This document shows, piece by piece, positions 17,386 to 32,696 of a stretch of 64,000 nucleotides of DNA (within the stretch, counting starts at the first letter, position 1; each line of letters begins with the position of its first letter). Source of the DNA: Pontibacter deserti (lineage in GTDB: Bacteria; Bacteroidota; Bacteroidia; Cytophagales; Hymenobacteraceae); assembly GCF_023630255.1 (NCBI RefSeq), contig NZ_JALPRS010000002.1, positions 1 through 64,000 on the forward strand, in the 5' to 3' direction. Both the position numbers and the translations under genes were made by a program. Below the pieces are notes generated by a model that did not search any database, was not told where the DNA came from, and saw only the letters and a program-made list of their open reading frames with translations.

Positions 17386-18405
17386 ATGCAACGCTTTAAC
17401 TACCTGCTGCGCTTATTGCCAGCTTTATTTTTACTTGTCACTGCTTGTAAAGAGCCTTTAGTAGCCACCCGCGAAGCCCCCCTTAGCACCATTGCCTTTG
17501 GCTCCTGCAACCGCCAGGATCTGCCGCAGGTAATATGGCCTGCCATAATCCAGAACAACCCGGATGTATGGGTGTGGCTGGGCGATAACATTTATGGCGA
17601 TTCTGAAGATATGGCTGTAATGAAGCAAAAGTATGATATGGTATTGCAGGAACCGGGCTACAAGCAACTGCAGGCAAATGCCAAGGTAATCGGTACCTGG
17701 GACGACCACGACTACGGTCTGAATGATGGAGGCAAAGAATTTAAGATGCGGGAGCAAAGCCAGCAACTGTTCTGGAATTTTATAGGTGAGCCAGCTAACA
17801 GTACGCGCCGGCAGCAGCAGGGTGTTTACAGTGCGCATACCTATGGCCCGGAAGGTAAGCAGGTGAAGGTTATATTACTGGACAGCCGTTATAACCGCGA
17901 TTCGCTTGTGCGCATCAACAAAATATACCAGGTAAACCAGACCGGCGATATGCTGGGCGAAGAACAATGGAAGTGGCTGGAAAACGAGCTTCGCAACAGT
18001 AAAGCGCAGGTAAACATCATAGGTAATGGTATACAGGTATTGCCTGAAGAACAGATGTATGAGAAGTGGGCCAACTTTCCGGCATCCAGAAAAAGACTGT
18101 TAGATATGATTGTAGCTACCCAGGCACAAGGGGTTATACTTATAAGCGGCGACCGCCACATTGGCGAGATATCCAGAACAGAATTACCGGGTCTGAATTA
18201 CCCGCTTTACGAAGTAACCAGCAGCGGCATGACGCATGTGTACAGCGGCAACAACGTAGAGCCTAACAAGTACCGCGTTGGCGGCCTGGTAAATAAACTT
18301 AACTTCGGGATGTTCCGGTTTAACTGGGGCAATAAAGTGCAGGTAGAGATGCTGGTAAAGGGCAAAGACAACGAAGTATACCTGCGCGAGAACGTAACTT
18401 ATTAA
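17386..18405 (+). CDS. PhoD-like alkaline phosphatase lipoprotein
   Basis: 339 residues. Lipoprotein signal with VTAC (Cys 21). The metallophosphoesterase core shows FGSCNRQD (about 39-45), VWLGDNIYGD, IGTWDDHDYG and ISGDRHIGE. This set of Asp, Asn and His ligands belongs to the PhoD/alkaline phosphatase D family (phosphodiesterase/phosphatase with Fe3+/Ca2+). It probably hydrolyses phosphate esters at the cell surface or in the periplasm. Single gene, closed by the hairpin at 18430-18463. Confidence 0.92.
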   Translation: MQRFNYLLRLLPALFLLVTACKEPLVATREAPLSTIAFGSCNRQDLPQVIWPAIIQNNPDVWVWLGDNIYGDSEDMAVMKQKYDMVLQEPGYKQLQANAKVIGTWDDHDYGLNDGGKEFKMREQSQQLFWNFIGEPANSTRRQQQGVYSAHTYGPEGKQVKVILLDSRYNRDSLVRINKIYQVNQTGDMLGEEQWKWLENELRNSKAQVNIIGNGIQVLPEEQMYEKWANFPASRKRLLDMIVATQAQGVILISGDRHIGEISRTELPGLNYPLYEVTSSGMTHVYSGNNVEPNKYRVGGLVNKLNFGMFRFNWGNKVQVEMLVKGKDNEVYLRENVTY

Positions 18406-21727: not shown

Positions 21728-22951
21728 CTATAAATCAACCCGCGCGGCAGCAGGCACTGCATCCGAGAAATAAGCTATTGAAATGGCAAAGGCCAGAACG
21801 GTAAGCACCAGCCCAACCATAAATATGGTGTAAGAAATGCGCAGGATATTGTATTTGCGTTTCAGAACTTCACCCAGGTAATAAATGTCGGTTATCATGT
21901 TGTTATACAGCGATTTTTTGTCGCGCATAATGTTGTGCATACCGTGCTGAAAATCCTCGAGAGGGATGTTAGTAAAGTTACCGAAGAAGAGCAGGTTTAC
22001 TTTGCGGCTGTTGATCTTTTCTTTCTTGAAAGAGGTGATCTCGGGCTGCGCTGAAATTATAGCAAAAATTACAGAGCCAAGTGCCGTTAAAAGCAGTGTG
22101 CCTACAGGTATTAGCAACGACCGATGTTGCGCAAACTCAGCTCCGGTAACCGATGTTTTGGCACTGAGGTAAGTGATCACCACCGACAGGATAATAGCGT
22201 TAAGGCTGATCATCATGTTGGCTTTATTATCAGCAATTGCACTCAGGTTAAGGTGGGTGCGATAGGTGTTACGGAACATGGTCTCGATACCACGCTTGGG
22301 CTGGGCCAGTGTTTCGCGGTGCTTTTTTTCTTCCTTCTTTTTCTTCTTTACTTCTTTGCTCAGTCGGCTGCGCTGCTCCTGTATGTTCAGGCCAAGTTGC
22401 CCGGCATACTTTCGCTGTGCCTGGTACGTATGGAAAGTAGTAGACAGCAGAAAATCCATCTGGAACTGTGCCCACTCCCTATCTGAAAACGATTTGTCCC
22501 GGAAGATTTCCCATTCCACGCGCAGCAGCTCAGCCGTACTAAAAAATGTTTCTTTCCCGATGTTGGACATGTCGGCATCCACGAGCAGCTCCTCTAAAAG
22601 TGTAACAGGCTCTACATCGTGTTTGGTAGCATGTATGCAGGCGGCAATGCGCTCGATCCGTTCAGCAGGGTGCTGTTGTAGTTCCAGCCACTCACGTGCA
22701 AAGCGTACACTTTCTGCTTCATGGCCTTCGTAAGTGTTCACATATCCTGTGTCATGAAACCAGGCTGCCAGCAACAGATCCTGTAACTCGTCGTGTGGGA
22801 GGTTCTGCATTTCGCCCAGGTCGCGGGCTTCATTTACGGTTTCAAAGGTGTGTCTATAGTTGTGGTATACAAGCTTTTTAGAGAGTTCTCCCTTAAACAG
22901 CTTAAACACATATTCTCCGGCTTGTTTAACTAGTGTGTTGTTGTTATCCAT
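21728..22951 (-). CDS. HD-domain protein fused to a Pycsar-type transmembrane effector (PycTM) domain
   Basis: 407 residues. The N-terminal HD phosphohydrolase-like domain (about 1-190) shows YRHTFETV (His34), AAWFHDTG (His66-Asp67), HATKHD (107-112) and a distal Asp126. A very basic linker (KKKKKEEKK, about 202-210) follows. The C-terminal PycTM/DUF5706 domain (about 220-395) contains NTYRTHLNLSAIADNKANMMISLNA, two hydrophobic segments (about 250-263 and 280-300) and a third near 372-393. PycTM is the membrane effector of cCMP/cUMP Pycsar defence. No nucleotide cyclase lies next to it, so this may be a stand-alone sensor or hydrolase-effector. ATG at 22951. Confidence 0.88.
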   Translation of the reverse strand: MDNNNTLVKQAGEYVFKLFKGELSKKLVYHNYRHTFETVNEARDLGEMQNLPHDELQDLLLAAWFHDTGYVNTYEGHEAESVRFAREWLELQQHPAERIERIAACIHATKHDVEPVTLLEELLVDADMSNIGKETFFSTAELLRVEWEIFRDKSFSDREWAQFQMDFLLSTTFHTYQAQRKYAGQLGLNIQEQRSRLSKEVKKKKKEEKKHRETLAQPKRGIETMFRNTYRTHLNLSAIADNKANMMISLNAIILSVVITYLSAKTSVTGAEFAQHRSLLIPVGTLLLTALGSVIFAIISAQPEITSFKKEKINSRKVNLLFFGNFTNIPLEDFQHGMHNIMRDKKSLYNNMITDIYYLGEVLKRKYNILRISYTIFMVGLVLTVLAFAISIAYFSDAVPAAARVDL

Positions 22952-23256: not shown

Positions 23257-26200
23257 ATGAGAAAAAGATATACCCTTTGGCGCTCCACTTCATTAAAGGT
23301 TGGTGTGGTGTTGCTTATACTTATTCTTAGTGCCTGCGCCCGGCACGACGTATACTTTGGTCCGCAAACAGCTAACTGGGAAACAGCCAAGCCAGCTGAC
23401 TCTAACAAACTGCTTTATACTGTTTTTCTGATAGGGGATGTGGGCGCCCCGGAACTGGAGCGCACCGAGCCATCTATGAAACTGATGCGCCAGCAAATGA
23501 TGGAAGCCGGTGCTCAGAGTGCCACTATCTTTTTAGGGGATAATGTGTATCATAACGGTCTGCCGGAGCCCGGAGCCTACGACCGCGAAGTATCTGAAAA
23601 GCGCCTGAACGCCCAGCTTGATATCTTAAAAGGATACCCCGGCGAAAAGTATATGATACCGGGCAACCACGACTGGAACCACAGCGGCCGTGGTGGCTTG
23701 GAGGCAGTTACACGTGAGCAGCGTTATGTAAACGAATACCTTACGGATGAGAACATTGTAGTTGGCGGAGATTTTTATGTGCCTGGTAACGGCTGCCCGG
23801 GTCCTTATGAAGTAAAGATCAGCGATGACCTGGTACTGATCGCGCTTGACTCGGAATGGTGGCTGCACCCTTTCGATAGACCTTATGGAGAGAACAGCAA
23901 TTGTGGCGCTGCTACCGAAGTAGACTTGCTCATACAACTAGAAGACATCATTGAGAAAAATGCAGGCAGCGATATCATGATCGTGGCGCACCACCCGCTC
24001 AAAAGCCGGGGTGTACATGGCGGTTTCTTTACCCTTAAAGATCATATCTTCCCGTTCACGCTCCTGCGCGAGTGGATATACCTGCCACTGCCTGTTATAG
24101 GTTCTATTTATCCTTTTGCCCGTAAGTATGGCGGTATTTTACAGGATATTCCGCACCCACGTTACCAGGCCTTCATCCAGGGGCTATACAACATCTTCGA
24201 TAAGTATGATAATATTATTTATGCTGCTGGCCATGAGCATGCCCTGGAGTATTTTAAACATAATAATGCCGGGCTTATAGTTAGTGGCTCAGGCTGTAAG
24301 ATACAGGATATAAGAGGGGGTGGCGATGCACATTATGCTGAAAAGGTAAAAGGCTTTGCCAAAGTAATGTACTATGAGAATGGTGAAGTATGGACGGAAT
24401 TCTGGGCACCCGAAGGAGATGGCTCAACTGGCAAGCTCACCTTCAGGACGCCGGTTTATGCCAAAAAGCCGCGAAGAGAACGACCACTTGTGCAGGATGA
24501 AACCAATTATGCCGATAGTACCCTGGTGCTGGCTGCGAACACAACTTATAAGGAAGCCAGTAGTATGCGCCGTAAGCTTTTAGGCGACCATTACCGCGAA
24601 GAGTGGGCTACACCGGTTACGCTGCCTACACTGGATATGAAAAACGTGGAAGGCGGGCTGCGGCCATACCAGAAAGGGGGCGGAAGGCAAACCGTATCTC
24701 TTAAAGTACGCAACCCGGATGCACGCGAATTTACCCTGCGAAGCGTGAACAAAGACCCAACTATGGCCTTGCCGGAATACCTTCGCGAAACGGCAGCCCG
24801 CGACCTGCTGCAGGACCAGATCTCGGCGCAGCACCCGTATGGTGCCTTAGTAGTTCCAAAGCTGGCTGATGCTGCCGGTGTGTACCATACAAATCCGAAG
24901 CTGGTATACATTCCGCAAACGCCGTACCTGCGCCAGTACATGGAGGAGTTCAGTAACATGATGGCATTTCTGGAAGAGGATGCAGATGAGAACCACGAGG
25001 ATGTCGCAAGCCTTGGTAATGCAGAAAACCTGGTAGGTACCGACAAAGTGCTGGAAGAACTACAACAGGATAACGACAATGAAGTAGACCAGCAGGAGTT
25101 TGCACGTGCCCGTTTGTTAGATATGCTTATCGGGGACTGGGACCGCCACGAAGGGCAGTGGCGATGGGCCGAGAAGAAAAAGCAGGGCGAAAGTGGCGAC
25201 ATTTATATACCAGTGCCTGAAGACCGTGATCAGGCTTTCTTTAAAGTAGATGGTGTGTTACCATGGCTGGCTACCCGCAAATGGAGCATCCGGAATGTGC
25301 AGAACTTCGATCATGATTATGGCGATATCATTGGCCTGAATCTGAGCGCCCAGACCGTAGACCGTACTTTCCTGTCCGGTGTTACGCGCCAGGATTGGAT
25401 GAAAATTGCTGAGGATATCAAAAAGAGCATGACAGATGCTGTAATTGAAGAAGCAGTACGGGATTTGCCAGAGAGTATACAACCAATATCTGGCCCTGAG
25501 ATAATTGCCAAGCTTAAATCCAGAAGGGATAAGCTCCCGCAGGCGGCCGAGGAGTACTATACTTTTCTGGCTAAACTGGTGGATGTGGCAGGCAGCGACA
25601 AGCACGAACGCTTTGTGGTAAACAGGATAAATGATGACGAAACCAGCCTTACAGTATACAAAATTACGAAAGAGGGAGAGTTGCGGGACACGTTGTATAA
25701 GCGTACTTTCTATACCAACGAAACAAAGGAGATCAGGCTGTATGGCTTAGGTGGCGAAGACGAATTTATAGTAAATGGTGATGTAAAAGAAGGTGTCGTA
25801 GTGCGTATTATCGGGGGAGATGAGGCTGATAAAATAACGGATAACTCGAACGTAAGCGGCTTTAAACACCATACAGTGGTTTACGATACCAAGGCAGGCA
25901 ACGACTTTATTTTTGGGCCGGAAACCAGAGATGAGACAGCGCCTTATGCAGATGTAAATCTTTATGACCGGAATAACTATAAGCTGCCATACTTTGGTCC
26001 GCGCCTGTCTTTTGAGTATAACGTAGACGATGGTTTATTTATAGGAGCAGGTGTGCTGGCACGTACACATAAATTCCGGAAAACGCCTTATGCTTCTGAA
26101 CACTTGCTGGAAGCTAATTATGCCTTTTTAACAAACTCTTACAACATACATTATACAGGCGATTTCAGGCAGGTTACGGGCAACTGGAACCTGCTGCTGG

Positions 26201-27075
26201 ATGGGAAAATTGAGGGCCCGCAGTACCAGCGTAATTATTATGGCTTAGGTAACGAAACTGAAAAAGACCCTGGCGTGGATGAAGCTTTTTATCGTGTGCG
26301 GTATGAACGGCAGCGGGCTAGTGTAAGGCTTTATAAAGATGCTACCTCATTCTTTAAAATAGGTATCGGCCCCACTTACGAACGTTTTAAGGTAAATACC
26401 CCAACCCAGGAAAATTTTCTGGTAAACGAAGCTGTAGCTGGTAACCTGCAGCCCGGCACTTTCGACGAAGCAACCGGGACATTTAATGCGCAGGAATATG
26501 TAGGTATAGAAGCGTTTGCTAACATGAATGTGATAGGTGGTGGTACAGATCCTAATCCGCGTATAGGTCTGCGCTGGTACAACAACATCCACTATAATCA
26601 TCAACTGGGTAAGTATAACCTTGATTTTACACGGCTCAGCTCAGAGTTCAGGTTTTATCTTACACCAAACTTCCCGTTTCAGCTTACCTGGGCAGGGCGT
26701 GTAGGTGCATCACATAACATTGGAGATTACAGGTTTTACCAAGCCAGCACGCTGGGTGGGACAGATAACCTGCGCGGCTACCGTCGTACGCGCTATGCAG
26801 GTCGCAGTGCCATCTATGCCAATGCCGAAGGCCGCATACAACTCATGAATTTTAACTTATACTTAGCGCCGGGCAGGCTTGGTGTATTGGGCCTTTATGA
26901 TACAGGGCGTGTGTACCACGAAGACGACAGGCGCCAAAGCTTTATAAAAAGCCTGCACAACGGGTATGGAGTGGGCGTTTGGGCAGATTTCCTGAACCGT
27001 ACGGTATTTACTTTAACCCACTCCTGGAGCAAGGAAGATACGCTATGGATGTTGAACTTTGGTTTCCAGTTTTAA
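23257..27075 (+). CDS. large surface lipoprotein: metallophosphoesterase, kinase-like middle region, outer-membrane barrel
   Basis: 1272 residues from ATG 23257 (an in-frame start at 23212 lies before the signal). Lipobox LSAC. The metallophosphoesterase domain (about 45-400) has all ligand motifs: LIGDVGAPE, FLGDNVY, IPGNHDWNHSG, VAHHPL and AAGHEHA. The middle region (about 470-700) has a Gly-rich KGGGRQTVSLKV, then TLRSVNKD, then GDWDRHEGQWRW (Asp629-Arg630-His631), then PEDRDQAF (Asp656, Asp658). This order resembles protein-kinase-like folds with a DRH catalytic loop and a downstream metal-binding Asp. From about residue 895 to the end there are amphipathic strands of a BamA/surface-antigen-type barrel ending WMLNFGFQF. 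The phosphoesterase-barrel architecture is known in Bacteroidota; the kinase reading is an inference. Confidence 0.88.
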   Translation: MRKRYTLWRSTSLKVGVVLLILILSACARHDVYFGPQTANWETAKPADSNKLLYTVFLIGDVGAPELERTEPSMKLMRQQMMEAGAQSATIFLGDNVYHNGLPEPGAYDREVSEKRLNAQLDILKGYPGEKYMIPGNHDWNHSGRGGLEAVTREQRYVNEYLTDENIVVGGDFYVPGNGCPGPYEVKISDDLVLIALDSEWWLHPFDRPYGENSNCGAATEVDLLIQLEDIIEKNAGSDIMIVAHHPLKSRGVHGGFFTLKDHIFPFTLLREWIYLPLPVIGSIYPFARKYGGILQDIPHPRYQAFIQGLYNIFDKYDNIIYAAGHEHALEYFKHNNAGLIVSGSGCKIQDIRGGGDAHYAEKVKGFAKVMYYENGEVWTEFWAPEGDGSTGKLTFRTPVYAKKPRRERPLVQDETNYADSTLVLAANTTYKEASSMRRKLLGDHYREEWATPVTLPTLDMKNVEGGLRPYQKGGGRQTVSLKVRNPDAREFTLRSVNKDPTMALPEYLRETAARDLLQDQISAQHPYGALVVPKLADAAGVYHTNPKLVYIPQTPYLRQYMEEFSNMMAFLEEDADENHEDVASLGNAENLVGTDKVLEELQQDNDNEVDQQEFARARLLDMLIGDWDRHEGQWRWAEKKKQGESGDIYIPVPEDRDQAFFKVDGVLPWLATRKWSIRNVQNFDHDYGDIIGLNLSAQTVDRTFLSGVTRQDWMKIAEDIKKSMTDAVIEEAVRDLPESIQPISGPEIIAKLKSRRDKLPQAAEEYYTFLAKLVDVAGSDKHERFVVNRINDDETSLTVYKITKEGELRDTLYKRTFYTNETKEIRLYGLGGEDEFIVNGDVKEGVVVRIIGGDEADKITDNSNVSGFKHHTVVYDTKAGNDFIFGPETRDETAPYADVNLYDRNNYKLPYFGPRLSFEYNVDDGLFIGAGVLARTHKFRKTPYASEHLLEANYAFLTNSYNIHYTGDFRQVTGNWNLLLDGKIEGPQYQRNYYGLGNETEKDPGVDEAFYRVRYERQRASVRLYKDATSFFKIGIGPTYERFKVNTPTQENFLVNEAVAGNLQPGTFDEATGTFNAQEYVGIEAFANMNVIGGGTDPNPRIGLRWYNNIHYNHQLGKYNLDFTRLSSEFRFYLTPNFPFQLTWAGRVGASHNIGDYRFYQASTLGGTDNLRGYRRTRYAGRSAIYANAEGRIQLMNFNLYLAPGRLGVLGLYDTGRVYHEDDRRQSFIKSLHNGYGVGVWADFLNRTVFTLTHSWSKEDTLWMLNFGFQF

Positions 27076-27161
27076 AATCTATACTTAAATATAGTAATGC
27101 CGTATGTAGTACAACTTGCGGCAATTTCTGCTTCTAAAAGCCGCATTTGTACTATAAAACT

Positions 27162-28193
27162 ATGAAACTTACTACGCTACTTTTAGGAGCGGCTGCTATA
27201 CTTTGTACTATAGTTCAGGCACAGGCTCAGAGTCCCGAAACAGAAATAATGGAAGAGTATGCCAGCCCATCGGTAGTTGGCATGGGTAAAGGCAAAGGTA
27301 TTGTTATCGGGTATGAGCGTTTACCAAGTTTTGATATAAAATCCGATTCTAAACACCCTCGCCTGGAAGATGGCCAAGGGCGTGTGCGCCGGCACAATAA
27401 ATTTGACGTGAAGATTAACGCGCCGGTCTTAAACAGGCCTCAGACAAAAGTTATATTTGGCATAGACTACAAGTTTGAAGAATTTAATTTCGAGGATGTT
27501 ACACCGGCAGCGTATGACCTCTATCAGTATCTGGAGGACAGGAACCTGCAAAGTGTGGGCGCACAGGCAGTATACCTGCATTCCATAGATAGCCGACGCT
27601 TTTACCTGGTCCGGTTAAGAGGGGAGCTGAACGGCGACTTTACAAAAGATGACATCAACTCTGACCTGATAGACTATTTTAAACCTACTATAGATTTAAT
27701 GTATGGCTGGAAAAAATCACCGAATTATGTGATTGGTGTAGGCCTGCAACTTGGCTATACTTTCGGGCGAGAAAGTATATACCCGGCTATAATTTACAAC
27801 CACACCTATAATAATAACTGGGGTGTAGAAGCTATTTTCCCTGCCAATGCCCGTTTGCGCTACAACGTAAATGAGAAAACGCTTCTTTTTGCCGGTTACC
27901 GCTTAGAGGGTGCCAGCTATAACCTTTATGTTGATGAAGGCTCGCTGTCGGAATTTGGAGAAATAGAACTCAGCCGTACAGATGTAAAAGGCCTTCTACG
28001 CCTGGAGCGCGAGATTTACGATTTCCTGTGGTTTGGAGTTGAAGGTGGTTTCAGGCAATATTACCGCAACCGTGTATTTGATGAAGCGGGCTCCCGTAAC
28101 GAAATACTGGATAACGACCTGTTTGGAGCCGGCTTTGTGAAGGTTGAGCTGTTTGTTGTGCCGCCAAGAAGATTAATGGAGAAGAGTAAATAA
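27162..28193 (+). CDS. DUF6268-like outer-membrane beta-barrel protein, paralogue 1
   Basis: 343 residues from ATG 27162, which starts the signal peptide MKLTTLLLGAAAILCTIVQAQAQ. The mature protein alternates amphipathic strands: VIGYERLPSFDIKSDSKHPR, RRHNKFDVKINAPVLNRPQTKVIFG, GVGLQLGYTFGR and LLFAGYRLEGASYNL, ending GFVKVELFVVPPRRL. This fits the Bacteroidota DUF6268 family. It is closely similar along its length to 28753-29808 and lies just after the phosphoesterase-barrel gene. Function unknown, probably an outer-membrane protein. Confidence 0.82.
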   Translation: MKLTTLLLGAAAILCTIVQAQAQSPETEIMEEYASPSVVGMGKGKGIVIGYERLPSFDIKSDSKHPRLEDGQGRVRRHNKFDVKINAPVLNRPQTKVIFGIDYKFEEFNFEDVTPAAYDLYQYLEDRNLQSVGAQAVYLHSIDSRRFYLVRLRGELNGDFTKDDINSDLIDYFKPTIDLMYGWKKSPNYVIGVGLQLGYTFGRESIYPAIIYNHTYNNNWGVEAIFPANARLRYNVNEKTLLFAGYRLEGASYNLYVDEGSLSEFGEIELSRTDVKGLLRLEREIYDFLWFGVEGGFRQYYRNRVFDEAGSRNEILDNDLFGAGFVKVELFVVPPRRLMEKSK

Positions 28194-28752: not shown

Positions 28753-29808
28753 ATGAAAAAAATATTTACCAGAACATTGCTGTTTTCTTTTCTCCTGATC
28801 GGGTGGCAGGCAGTTGCCCAGCGACCAGCATACCGTCAGGCTGACACAACAATATATGCCGGCCCAGGGGTGGAGGGCCAGGCCAGACCGCGCGGGGTAG
28901 TAATCAGGTATGAACGCCTCCCCAGTTTCGATATAGAATCTGAGTCTGATGACCCTAGGATAGGAAATGGAGAGGGACATGTCAGGCGCCACAACAAGTT
29001 CTCTGTTTCAGCAGCAGCCCCACTGATTAACAGGCCTCAGACAAAGCTTATTATTGGTTTCGGCTACGAATTAGAGGAATTTAATTTTGAAGACCTCGAC
29101 GACAACTCCTATAGTTTGTACCGATACCTGGAAGATAAGAACATGAAAAGTATAAGCTTGCAGCTAGCCTACCAACACTCCCTGGATGAACGCAAGTTTT
29201 ATATAATCCGTGTAAAAGGCGAACTCAACGGAGATTATACCCGGGACGACATTAACATTTCTGATTACCTGAAAACCACTGTAGATTTAGCTTATGGCTG
29301 GTCCTTATCTCCTTATTATTCTATTGGTATAGGCGTACAATATGGTTATATTTTTGGCAGGCAAAGGATTTATCCGGGCCTCCTGTATAACCGTACCTTC
29401 AACCCGAAATGGGGAATAGAGGCAATTGCTCCTGCTGCAGCCAGAGTGCGCTATAATGCTAACGATAAAACGCTTTTCTATGCGGGATATCGTTTAGAGG
29501 GTAGCAGCTATAACATCTACGCTGACGAAACAGACCTGCAACAGTTTGGTGATATAGAGCTGCGACGTACAGATATAAAAGGTCTGCTGCGCATGGAACG
29601 TGAGATCTATGACTTTCTGTGGTTTGCAGTGGAGGGTGGCTTCCGGCAGTACTACAACCACCGTGTTTTTGAAGATGTGGGTACTTCAGATGATGAATTG
29701 ATTGAAAATGACCTCGCCGGCGCAGGCTTTGTAGAAGTTGAGCTATACCTGGTGGCACCACGCAAATGGTTAGAAAAAGGCCAGGTTAGAAAAGGACCAG
29801 GCAGATAA
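28753..29808 (+). CDS. DUF6268-like outer-membrane beta-barrel protein, paralogue 2
   Basis: 351 residues. Signal peptide MKKIFTRTLLFSFLLIGWQAVAQ. It aligns with the gene at 27162 throughout: VIRYERLPSFDIESESDDPR, RRHNKFSVSAAAPLINRPQTKLIIG, TLFYAGYRLEGSSYNIYADE and EIYDFLWFAVEGGFRQYYNHRVFED. The two genes are evidently a tandem duplication that has diverged, separated by 559 gene-free bases. Ends in a basic tail (RKGPGR). Function unknown; same compartment as its paralogue. Confidence 0.82.
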   Translation: MKKIFTRTLLFSFLLIGWQAVAQRPAYRQADTTIYAGPGVEGQARPRGVVIRYERLPSFDIESESDDPRIGNGEGHVRRHNKFSVSAAAPLINRPQTKLIIGFGYELEEFNFEDLDDNSYSLYRYLEDKNMKSISLQLAYQHSLDERKFYIIRVKGELNGDYTRDDINISDYLKTTVDLAYGWSLSPYYSIGIGVQYGYIFGRQRIYPGLLYNRTFNPKWGIEAIAPAAARVRYNANDKTLFYAGYRLEGSSYNIYADETDLQQFGDIELRRTDIKGLLRMEREIYDFLWFAVEGGFRQYYNHRVFEDVGTSDDELIENDLAGAGFVEVELYLVAPRKWLEKGQVRKGPGR

Positions 29809-29857: not shown

Positions 29858-29902
29858 TAAAGTATAAAAGGCCAGCAATAACAGCTGGCCTTTTATACTT
29901 TA
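29858..29902. terminator. bidirectional terminator with perfect 19-bp stem
   Basis: 29858-29876 pairs with 29884-29902. The stem again contains AAAGTATAAAAGGCC. The last three bases are the ppk1 stop codon. It separates 28753 (+) from ppk1 (-). Confidence 0.82.
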
Positions 29903-31996
29903 TTCCCGTTCCGGCTTCAAGCCTTTGGGCACCAGGCTGCGGAGGTAATCATAGGTAGCATACTGCGCCCGGATATGATCATCTGTAGATTGGGTTACAT
30001 AGGTATTATCTACGGTACGGGACTTGGTGTCGTCGGAGCGTTGCAGGTCTACTATGGTACGAACCTGGTCTATCAAATCCTGTTGAAAAAGCGGGAAAGC
30101 TACTTCTACCCGACGGCTCAAGTTACGCGTCATCCAGTCGGCAGAGGCTATATAATACTTCTCTTCCCCATTGTTATGGAAAATGTAGACCCGGGCATGT
30201 TCCAGGTAACGATCTACTATACTTTGTACTGTAATATTTTCGCTTAAACCCTTTACACCAGGTTGCAGACAACAGATACCACGAATCAACAATTCTATCT
30301 TTACACCTGCCTGGCTTGCTTCATATAGTTTCCTGATCATGCGGTCGTCCTGCAGGGCATTCATCTTTAAGATCATGGAAGCCGGCAACGCTTTCCTGGC
30401 ATTTTTTATTTCTTTATTCACCAGGTCGTTAAAGCGGTCTCGCATGTTAATAGGAGCAACCAGCAAATGCTTGAACTTCTTGTCAGGCTGACGGTCTATA
30501 AAGAAATTAAATACCTGCTCCACATCTTGAGTAAGGCGTTTGTCGCAGGTAAACAGGGCGTGGTCGCAGTAAATTTTGGAGGTGTCTTCGTTGTAGTTAC
30601 CGGTGCTTAGGTAGGCATAGTTTACCAGTTTGCCATTCTCGTTTCTGGTTATTAAGCCAAGCTTAGAATGTACTTTCAGATCAGGTACGCCAAGTATAAC
30701 ATTGGCCCCGGCTTTCTGTAATTTACCCGCCCAAAAGATGTTTGATTCCTCGTCGAAACGTGCTTTGAGCTCTACAACCACTGTTACCAGTTTACCATTT
30801 TTAGCTGCCTTGGTGAGTGCTTTGGCAATGGCAGAGCCATCGGCTACACGGTATAAAGTAGCGCTGATGGCAGTAACGGCAGGGTCTATAGCAGCTTCAT
30901 CAAACAGCTTTACCACATAGTCAAAAGACTGATAAGGGTAATGTACGATGTAATCCTGCTTCTGCATGGCCGCAATCATACTTGGCTCTTTCTCCAGTAG
31001 AGGGTGCACCAGTGTAGGCTGCGGCTTATACTTTAGCTCCGGCAGGTTAAAATCCGGGAATCCGAAAAAGTCTCTGAAGTTGTGATACTTGCTGCCTTCT
31101 ACAAGCTCCTCGTCTGTTATACCGGTATGTGCCATAATGGCGTCCAGCAACGATTGTGTTGTTTCTGGGTCGTATAGCAAGCGGGCAGGAGTGCCTATCT
31201 CACGCTTCTTCAATCCTTTTTTGATCTTCGACATCAGGTTAGCCGACACATCTTCTTCAATATCCAGCTCCGCATCCCTGGATACTTTTACTGCATGTGC
31301 TTCAAACTGGCTATACTCCGGAAACAGTAACGGCAGGCACGCACGAATGGCATCATCAATAAACATAACATACCTGTTGTTTTTTTGAGTAGGCAGTTTA
31401 ATAAAGCGGCCGCCATGTTTTTTAGTTGGTACTTCCAGCATGGCATACTGTTCTGGTAGGACAGCATCTTTTTTAGCGCTGCTCATCTGTACACCTAAAT
31501 ATACTGTCTGGTCTTTCAGGAAGAAGTGTGTTTCCGTGTCATCCATCACCATCGGTAGCAGCAGTGGCTGCAGGTTCTCTTTAAAGTAAGTGGTGATGAA
31601 CTTTTTCTGAGTGGCTGTGAGGTCTTTTTCGGTGATCAGGTGGATGTTTTCCTTTTTAAGATCGGCTAAGATTCCATCGCGAAACACCTCGCCGAACTCC
31701 TGCTGCTGGCGCTTTACTTCCTGCATTACCAGGTTCAGTGTTTCAGCAGGATCTTCGTCCAGCTTTTCAATTGTTTTGCGTTTCAGCTTTATCAGACGCT
31801 TAAGAGTAGCCACACGCACTTTAAAATACTCATCCAGGTTAGATGAGAAGATGGCCATGAACTTAATGCGCTCCAGCAGGGGCACCTGTTTATCGTTGGC
31901 TTCCTGTAATACTCTATAGTTAAAAGCCAGCCAGCTTAATTCCCGGTTTATAAACTCAGGTTCTGCCTGTTGCTTCTTTTTTTTCTCTTTTTCCAT
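29900..31996 (-). CDS. ppk1: polyphosphate kinase 1
   Basis: 698 residues from ATG 31996; an in-frame TTG at 32029 is less likely. N-terminal domain EFINRELSWLAFNYRVLQEA, then the two PLD-like catalytic halves with the phosphorylated His443 in LKVHSKLGL and the second His607 in VYIFHNNGEEKYYIASADWMTRNL, plus VVELKARFDEESNI. The enzyme reversibly transfers the gamma phosphate of ATP to inorganic polyphosphate through a phosphohistidine. It lies 91 bases after sixA on the same strand. Its stop codon forms part of the terminator. Confidence 0.97.
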   Translation of the reverse strand: MEKEKKKKQQAEPEFINRELSWLAFNYRVLQEANDKQVPLLERIKFMAIFSSNLDEYFKVRVATLKRLIKLKRKTIEKLDEDPAETLNLVMQEVKRQQQEFGEVFRDGILADLKKENIHLITEKDLTATQKKFITTYFKENLQPLLLPMVMDDTETHFFLKDQTVYLGVQMSSAKKDAVLPEQYAMLEVPTKKHGGRFIKLPTQKNNRYVMFIDDAIRACLPLLFPEYSQFEAHAVKVSRDAELDIEEDVSANLMSKIKKGLKKREIGTPARLLYDPETTQSLLDAIMAHTGITDEELVEGSKYHNFRDFFGFPDFNLPELKYKPQPTLVHPLLEKEPSMIAAMQKQDYIVHYPYQSFDYVVKLFDEAAIDPAVTAISATLYRVADGSAIAKALTKAAKNGKLVTVVVELKARFDEESNIFWAGKLQKAGANVILGVPDLKVHSKLGLITRNENGKLVNYAYLSTGNYNEDTSKIYCDHALFTCDKRLTQDVEQVFNFFIDRQPDKKFKHLLVAPINMRDRFNDLVNKEIKNARKALPASMILKMNALQDDRMIRKLYEASQAGVKIELLIRGICCLQPGVKGLSENITVQSIVDRYLEHARVYIFHNNGEEKYYIASADWMTRNLSRRVEVAFPLFQQDLIDQVRTIVDLQRSDDTKSRTVDNTYVTQSTDDHIRAQYATYDYLRSLVPKGLKPERE

Positions 31997-32087
31997 CTTT
32001 GTGTAAGTTGTGCTGCATATTGTTGACAAGTAGTTTTACAATAAAACAGGTTGCAGCAATGGGTGAAGTATAAATCAGGCAGGCGCC

Positions 32088-32582
32088 CTACTCGTAGTTC
32101 TTTGGGAAATCGAAGAACAGGAATTCTGCATTGTCCCGGCTGATCTCGTACCAGCTCTCACAATCAAAATTAAGGGCAACTACACCCGCAGTAGGTATAA
32201 TACCCACTACTTCCGACGACAGCATGTTGGCAAATTCAGTAAGAGCATCATTATGACCTATAATCATCATGCTTTCAGCCTCTACAGGTGTTTCCTGCAC
32301 TACCTCCAGCAGTAAGTTCTTATCAGCACCGTAAATACGTTCATCTATCACAATATCATCCGGGTCGTAGCCTAGTTCTTTGCCTATAAGGGTAGCGGTG
32401 GAGATGGCACGTACAGCAGGGCTCGATACGATCAGGCTAGGCAATACGCCTCGCGAAGAAAGCTCCCGGCCCATTAGCGATGCATCATTGCGTCCTCGTT
32501 TGTTCAGGGGCCTGTCGTGGTCGCTTAGTTCTTCAAATTCCCAGCTCGACTTGGCGTGTCTCAGTATATATAATGTCTTCAT
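32088..32582 (-). CDS. sixA: SixA-type phosphohistidine phosphatase (histidine phosphatase superfamily)
   Basis: 164 residues from ATG 32582, chosen because it places MKTLYILRHAK at the N-terminus as in the family; a start five codons upstream exists. Catalytic RHA motif with His9, DHDRPLNKRG, VSSPAVRAISTATL and the second His in MIIGHNDAL. SixA removes phosphate from phosphohistidine. Directly upstream of ppk1 on the same strand, an enzyme with a phosphohistidine intermediate, so a functional link is plausible. Confidence 0.93.
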   Translation of the reverse strand: MKTLYILRHAKSSWEFEELSDHDRPLNKRGRNDASLMGRELSSRGVLPSLIVSSPAVRAISTATLIGKELGYDPDDIVIDERIYGADKNLLLEVVQETPVEAESMMIIGHNDALTEFANMLSSEVVGIIPTAGVVALNFDCESWYEISRDNAEFLFFDFPKNYE

Positions 32583-32696
32583 GGGATCAATAATCAATCA
32601 GGACCAACAGCATATTTGGAAGTTGCTATGGTTCTGTGTCTTTACTGAAAGTGTCTGAAAATAGTTGTGGTAGGTTAAAGGATGTCTAGCTGCAGA

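Follow-up and report, generated by a model that had tools for sequence, protein, structure and literature searches.

The window analysed here is a 64,000-nucleotide stretch of a Pontibacter deserti contig, in which a single open frame with zero internal stops encodes a 1272-residue protein that joins a metallophosphoesterase (MPE), a kinase-like domain and an Omp85-like barrel. Its nearest named homologues are Pontibacter proteins (80-87% identity), and full-length homologues are found in Pontibacter, Fulvivirga and Echinicola. The protein, its parts and three neighbouring genes are:

23257-27075, + strand: MPE–kinase-like–barrel protein, 1272 aa
23257-23337, + strand: lipoprotein signal, residues 1-27, lipobox LSAC (sequence reading, with a pattern check on homologues)
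23374-24471, + strand: MPE domain, residues 40-405 (Pfam PF00149, conserved metal-site residues, purple acid phosphatase matches)
24562-25596, + strand: kinase-like domain (CotH/HipA/FAM20C-like), residues 436-780 (conservation, profile, sequence and model comparisons)
24673-24693, + strand: glycine-rich loop KGGGRQT, residues 473-479
24739-24753, + strand: R495 and K499, at the end of the third strand (strand placed from the AF2 model)
25135-25161, + strand: putative catalytic loop DWDRHEGQW, residues 627-635 (conservation; D629 on the CotH invariant Asp)
25222-25230, + strand: putative metal-binding DRD, residues 656-658 (conservation; D656 on the CotH invariant Asp)
25579-25971, + strand: strand-rich linker domain, residues 775-905 (confident strands in the AF2 model of the entire middle region)
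25978-27072, + strand: Omp85-like C-terminal barrel, residues 908-1272 (NCBIfam NF047779, under the curated cut-off)
21728-22951, - strand: HD-domain and PycTM protein (Pfam PycTM 8e-28, HD 1e-5), a neighbour in most barrel-bearing loci
29900-32029, - strand: polyphosphate kinase PPK1 (Pfam), a recurrent neighbour
32091-32597, - strand: SixA-like histidine phosphatase, stop-to-stop frame (HMM match; Pfam His_Phos_1 on a Pontibacter orthologue)

A first-pass annotation of this DNA had described the product as a lipoprotein with a complete metallophosphoesterase and a terminal barrel, and these assignments hold. A lipoprotein signal (LILSAC) can be read at the N-terminus. The MPE domain lies above the cut-off of Pfam Metallophos (E 2.6e-5, 25.2 bits against 21.5), and its metal site (D61, D95, D139, H245, H246, H326 and H328) is 95-100% conserved in 55 sequences. 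By sequence its sole matches in the PDB are purple acid phosphatases; GDN, GNHD and GHxH motifs are common to these enzymes, to TRAP and to the MPE, but the match is weak (best E 0.035) and the domain here is bacterial and fused. The barrel matches NF047779 at E 2.7e-22; its 79.8 bits lie under the curated cut-off of 200, which was set for a whole protein. The linker contains GGxxxD-type repeats recalling calcium-binding rolls, and structural comparison of a longer model gave no fold identification for it.

The combination of MPE and Omp85 barrel is already known. The Omp85 “Metallo” subfamily, with an N-terminal PF00149 domain and termed metalloprotease, probably comprises the same proteins as the present family, although the available part of that account makes no mention of a kinase-like domain (Heinz and Lithgow, 2014; PMC4104836). 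For the kinase-like domain, which was previously unnamed, no description was found in the openly licensed literature.

Conservation and fold of the middle domain

The middle region (residues 430-908) matches no Pfam or NCBIfam model. A kinase-like fold is nevertheless very likely for its main domain, judging from four lines of evidence (profile, sequence, predicted structure and the order of the predicted elements) that are each moderate alone and gain their strength in combination. Conservation was read from an alignment of 91 rows, which takes in a few truncated duplicates of paralogues from the same genome. The protein-kinase-like residue set is present in kinase order, from the glycine-rich loop and the Lys to the catalytic Asp and the metal-binding Asp. 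Conservation reaches 100% at E573, D622 and D627, 99% at G474, G475, R495, K499, R630 and D656, 98% at D658, 96% at Q634, 95% at Q478 and H631, and 92% at D629, so that D627 is more invariant than D629; the loop is weaker at G476 (about 73%) and at the variable R477. All 15 tested residues are kept in 79 of the 91 rows, the window protein included. Because of this 92-100% conservation in 91 homologues, the motifs are, at the level of sequence, beyond chance resemblance. The residue numbers that the first-pass annotation had given for KGGGRQT, for GDWDRH with D629-R630-H631 and for PEDRDQAF with D656/D658 are exact, and the conservation that it had proposed to check at DRH and DRD is borne out.

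In profile comparison CotH is the closest of the known families, with FAM20C, HipA and the phosphatidylinositol (PI) kinases more distant, which refines an earlier reading that had named the last three. With a CotH alignment of 28 sequences as the query, hhalign scores the kinase-like domain at 42.0 (E 6.5e-5), against 42.2 for CotH with HipA and a maximum of 27.1 for decoys drawn from unrelated family pairs of the same loci. The match covers about 190 columns, reaches the end of the C-lobe, and places D629 on the invariant Asp of GNWD and D656 on that of IPYDYD. It recurs in disjoint subsets of the family (39.7 for MPE-kinase-barrel, 44.7 for kinase-barrel and 28.7 for stand-alone sequences), where block-shuffled profiles give 18.4 ± 2.9 and a maximum of 26.8. 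When query and template are exchanged, CotH scores 31.1 and HipA 29.7 (probability 12%), both above all 100 column shuffles each; the profile-profile probability for the domain is just 52-74%. HipA scores below CotH in most settings, and for the HipA/CtkA family (PF07804) hhalign sets N.D.H on the DRH loop.

A PDB search with a 79-row profile of the domain found no relative. Pfam CotH (PF08757) does not match the window protein or anything in its genome, and among 79 members it matches a single one, at E 0.023; HipA has no match in the same genome and does not figure among the families recorded for those 79. The Pfam Fam20C model (PF06702), run against 148 Bacteroidota genomes, has its best match in a family member, the protein of locus L151, and all scores lie below its cut-off (best 20.4 bits against 26.8; L151 itself 17.5). 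The catalytic segment of the L151 homologue has FAM20 kinases as its sole PDB sequence matches (C. elegans FAM20, E 0.0026; human FAM20C, E 1.1), in an alignment that ends LIGNQDRH / LIGDWDRH; L151 was chosen because of its Pfam Fam20C match, so the two findings cannot be counted as independent.

Structure prediction is of low confidence. AF2 modelling of the entire middle region from 12 sequences gave a poor result (pLDDT 55, about 30 in the kinase part), and a shorter crop was therefore modelled (residues 436-780, template-free, 12 sequences, pLDDT 57, pTM 0.57), in which the catalytic loop and the DRD region fall below pLDDT 50. The predicted elements of this crop follow the kinase order: strands surround the glycine loop, K499 follows the third strand, and a helix, GDWDRH, a hairpin and DRD come next in turn. 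Foldseek, whose rmsd values are large, ranks CtkA first (E 1.7e-4, probability 1.00), followed by other kinases, and VIA ranks Bacillus CotH first (Z 8.6, 189 residues aligned, rmsd 4.8), followed by HipA, CtkA and PI4KIIalpha; both lists consist of kinases throughout. VPS34 and PI3K are also among the structural matches, and FAM20C is absent among the VIA matches listed for the crop. A separate, poorer model of residues 430-908 once more retrieves CtkA (Z 7.4) and HipA, with FAM20C at Z 4.3. Fold comparison, which the first-pass annotation had named as one of two tests that could refute its kinase-like reading, thus returned kinase folds, if more weakly for the longer model.

The domain is filed here as a new family of the protein-kinase-like (PKL) superfamily, nearest to CotH and not a member of CotH, FAM20C or HipA. 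The CotH spore-coat kinases (PDB 5jd9, 5jda) read GNWD / IPYDYDNTFG where this domain reads GDWDRH / PVPEDRDQAF; unlike them, it has a long N-lobe, a GG..Q motif of its own, and a fusion to MPE, linker and barrel. The fold of CotH itself is described as an atypical PKL one with a distant relationship to Fam20C, and substitution of D228 or D251 inactivates the protein (PMC7821199). The secretory-pathway kinases of the FAM20C family carry LIGNQDRH or LMGNMDRH in place of LIGDWDRH.

Architectures and gene neighbourhood

Of 395 Bacteroidota genomes, 144 carry the middle domain, as do 75 of 171 genera, and viral and phage collections contained no relatives. Three forms make up the 91 rows: 52 are MPE-kinase-barrel, 24 are kinase-barrel proteins of about 870 aa, and 15 consist of the kinase-like domain alone, at about 530 aa. 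The genome of the window encodes four further stand-alone kinase-like copies and one stand-alone MPE. Two genomes, G251 and G055, encode the three parts as separate adjoining genes (first kinase, then MPE, then barrel), an arrangement that supports a functional link between them. On a tree of 85 sequences, 7 architecture changes suffice, where shuffled labels require 29.3.

Several variants deserve mention. At L072:6731-9319 and L077:1452-4112, from two genomes, a degenerate kinase-barrel copy in which catalytic residues have been lost adjoins an intact one, in an enzyme/pseudokinase arrangement. Several stand-alone copies (L057, L058, L061 and one in the genome of the window) have Ser at D629 with D627 kept. 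At L021 and L196 (G320) a break inside the MPE divides the MPE-kinase-barrel gene into two frames, of 130 and 1106 aa.

Neighbouring genes were counted within 12 kb, with Pontibacter loci kept apart from the others. Outside Pontibacter, the 21 kinase-barrel loci include HD-PycTM in 13, an SdiA-regulated propeller in 12, SixA in 10 and PPK1 in 9, while the 29 MPE-kinase-barrel loci include HD-PycTM in 23 (some PycTM only), the propeller in 19 and PPK1 in 2. In Pontibacter, HD-PycTM is present at 9 of 9 loci and PPK1 at 7 of 9. PPK1 would be met by chance at about 0.6% of loci, and the binomial value of 2.8e-15, which ignores shared ancestry, means just that the association is far beyond chance. 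The stand-alone copies lack the PPK1/SixA/HD-PycTM/propeller neighbourhood, and PPK1 is near none of them. No description of this neighbourhood was found in the openly licensed literature.

Among the neighbours of the barrel-bearing forms, the most constant is the HD-PycTM gene, in which an HD domain is joined to a Pycsar effector-like PycTM domain, with PycTM alone in some cases (L199). The HD-PycTM gene is also the sole PADLOC match, and the MPE-kinase-barrel protein has none. A tandem pair of DUF6268 outer-membrane-like genes (27147-28193 and 28753-29808, both +) adjoins the MPE-kinase-barrel gene in Pontibacter only, and a PhoD-like phosphatase lipoprotein lies upstream (17386-18405, +) as a further phosphate enzyme of the region. 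In one family, four genomes (L185, L186, L187 and L190) have a CotH gene of about 390 aa no more than about 7 kb from their kinase-barrel gene.

A candidate kinase/phosphatase pair in the cell envelope

The reading that we prefer, with a probability of about 0.78, is that of an active envelope PKL phosphotransferase paired with an MPE phosphatase on a barrel, in a pathway common with PPK1, SixA and HD-PycTM. A PKL domain from the CotH/FAM20C/HipA branch, its active site complete (the glycine loop, K499, D629, Q634 and D656/D658), would be held at the outer membrane by the Omp85-like barrel. The purple-acid-phosphatase-like MPE, which is usually fused to it, would remove phosphate, giving a kinase/phosphatase pair in the cell envelope, and PPK1, SixA and HD-PycTM, encoded alongside, would act in the same pathway. 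On its residues, the kinase-like domain is most probably an active phosphotransferase. Comparison of sequences, profiles and models establishes the domain make-up, the conserved residues, the PKL relationship, the architectures and the gene neighbourhood. We infer that both enzymes are catalytic and that the N-terminal modules face the periplasm, as the N-terminal domains of Omp85 proteins normally do, in place of the surface position that the first-pass annotation had named. FAM20C kinases act outside the cytosol, and the domain described here is likewise predicted to be extracytoplasmic.

ATP is not expected in the periplasm, and the link to PPK1 makes polyphosphate an attractive candidate donor; a role for it as phosphoryl donor or as substrate is speculative. 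The fullest version of the scheme, a Bacteroidota-wide writer and eraser of phosphate on one barrel that acts on envelope substrates and uses PPK1-made polyphosphate, not ATP, as source or target, is rather unlikely. To our knowledge, few bacterial kinases act beyond the inner membrane. Here a kinase-like family, predicted to be extracytoplasmic and physically joined to a phosphatase, is present in more than a third of the sampled Bacteroidota genomes, and its recurrent PPK1/SixA/HD-PycTM neighbourhood provides a concrete, testable link to polyphosphate metabolism. Together, these features suggest a hitherto unrecognised phosphate-handling system in the Bacteroidota cell envelope.

Two alternatives carry some weight. 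The substrate of the PKL fold may not be protein: the domain could act on a lipid, a sugar or a small molecule, or transfer nucleotides as some PKL families do. The presence of PI4KIIalpha, VPS34 and PI3K among the structural matches is in keeping with this, and for a protein of the outer membrane a lipid or a glycan would be a fitting substrate; the closest family by profile, CotH, is however a protein kinase, and we regard a non-protein substrate as possible rather than probable. It is likewise conceivable, though not the reading we favour, that the PPK1 neighbourhood is an inherited gene order without functional meaning. Related genomes share ancestry, and PPK1 is scarce beside the MPE-kinase-barrel form outside Pontibacter and absent beside the stand-alone copies; yet PPK1, SixA, HD-PycTM and the propeller recur across several families and with both barrel-bearing forms.

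Loss of catalysis, with the PKL fold serving as a binding or scaffold domain, is improbable. The degenerate copies at L072 and L077 and the Ser at D629 of several stand-alone copies speak for it, but the full residue set is kept in 79 of the 91 rows, that of the window protein among them, and the degenerate copies adjoin intact ones. That the middle region has no kinase fold, and is a structural or POTRA-like linker of other descent whose motifs resemble those of kinases by chance, is very improbable: although library models give no match and the structure prediction is of low confidence, the domain is found alone and in several fusions, and the profile, sequence and structural tests converge on PKL families.
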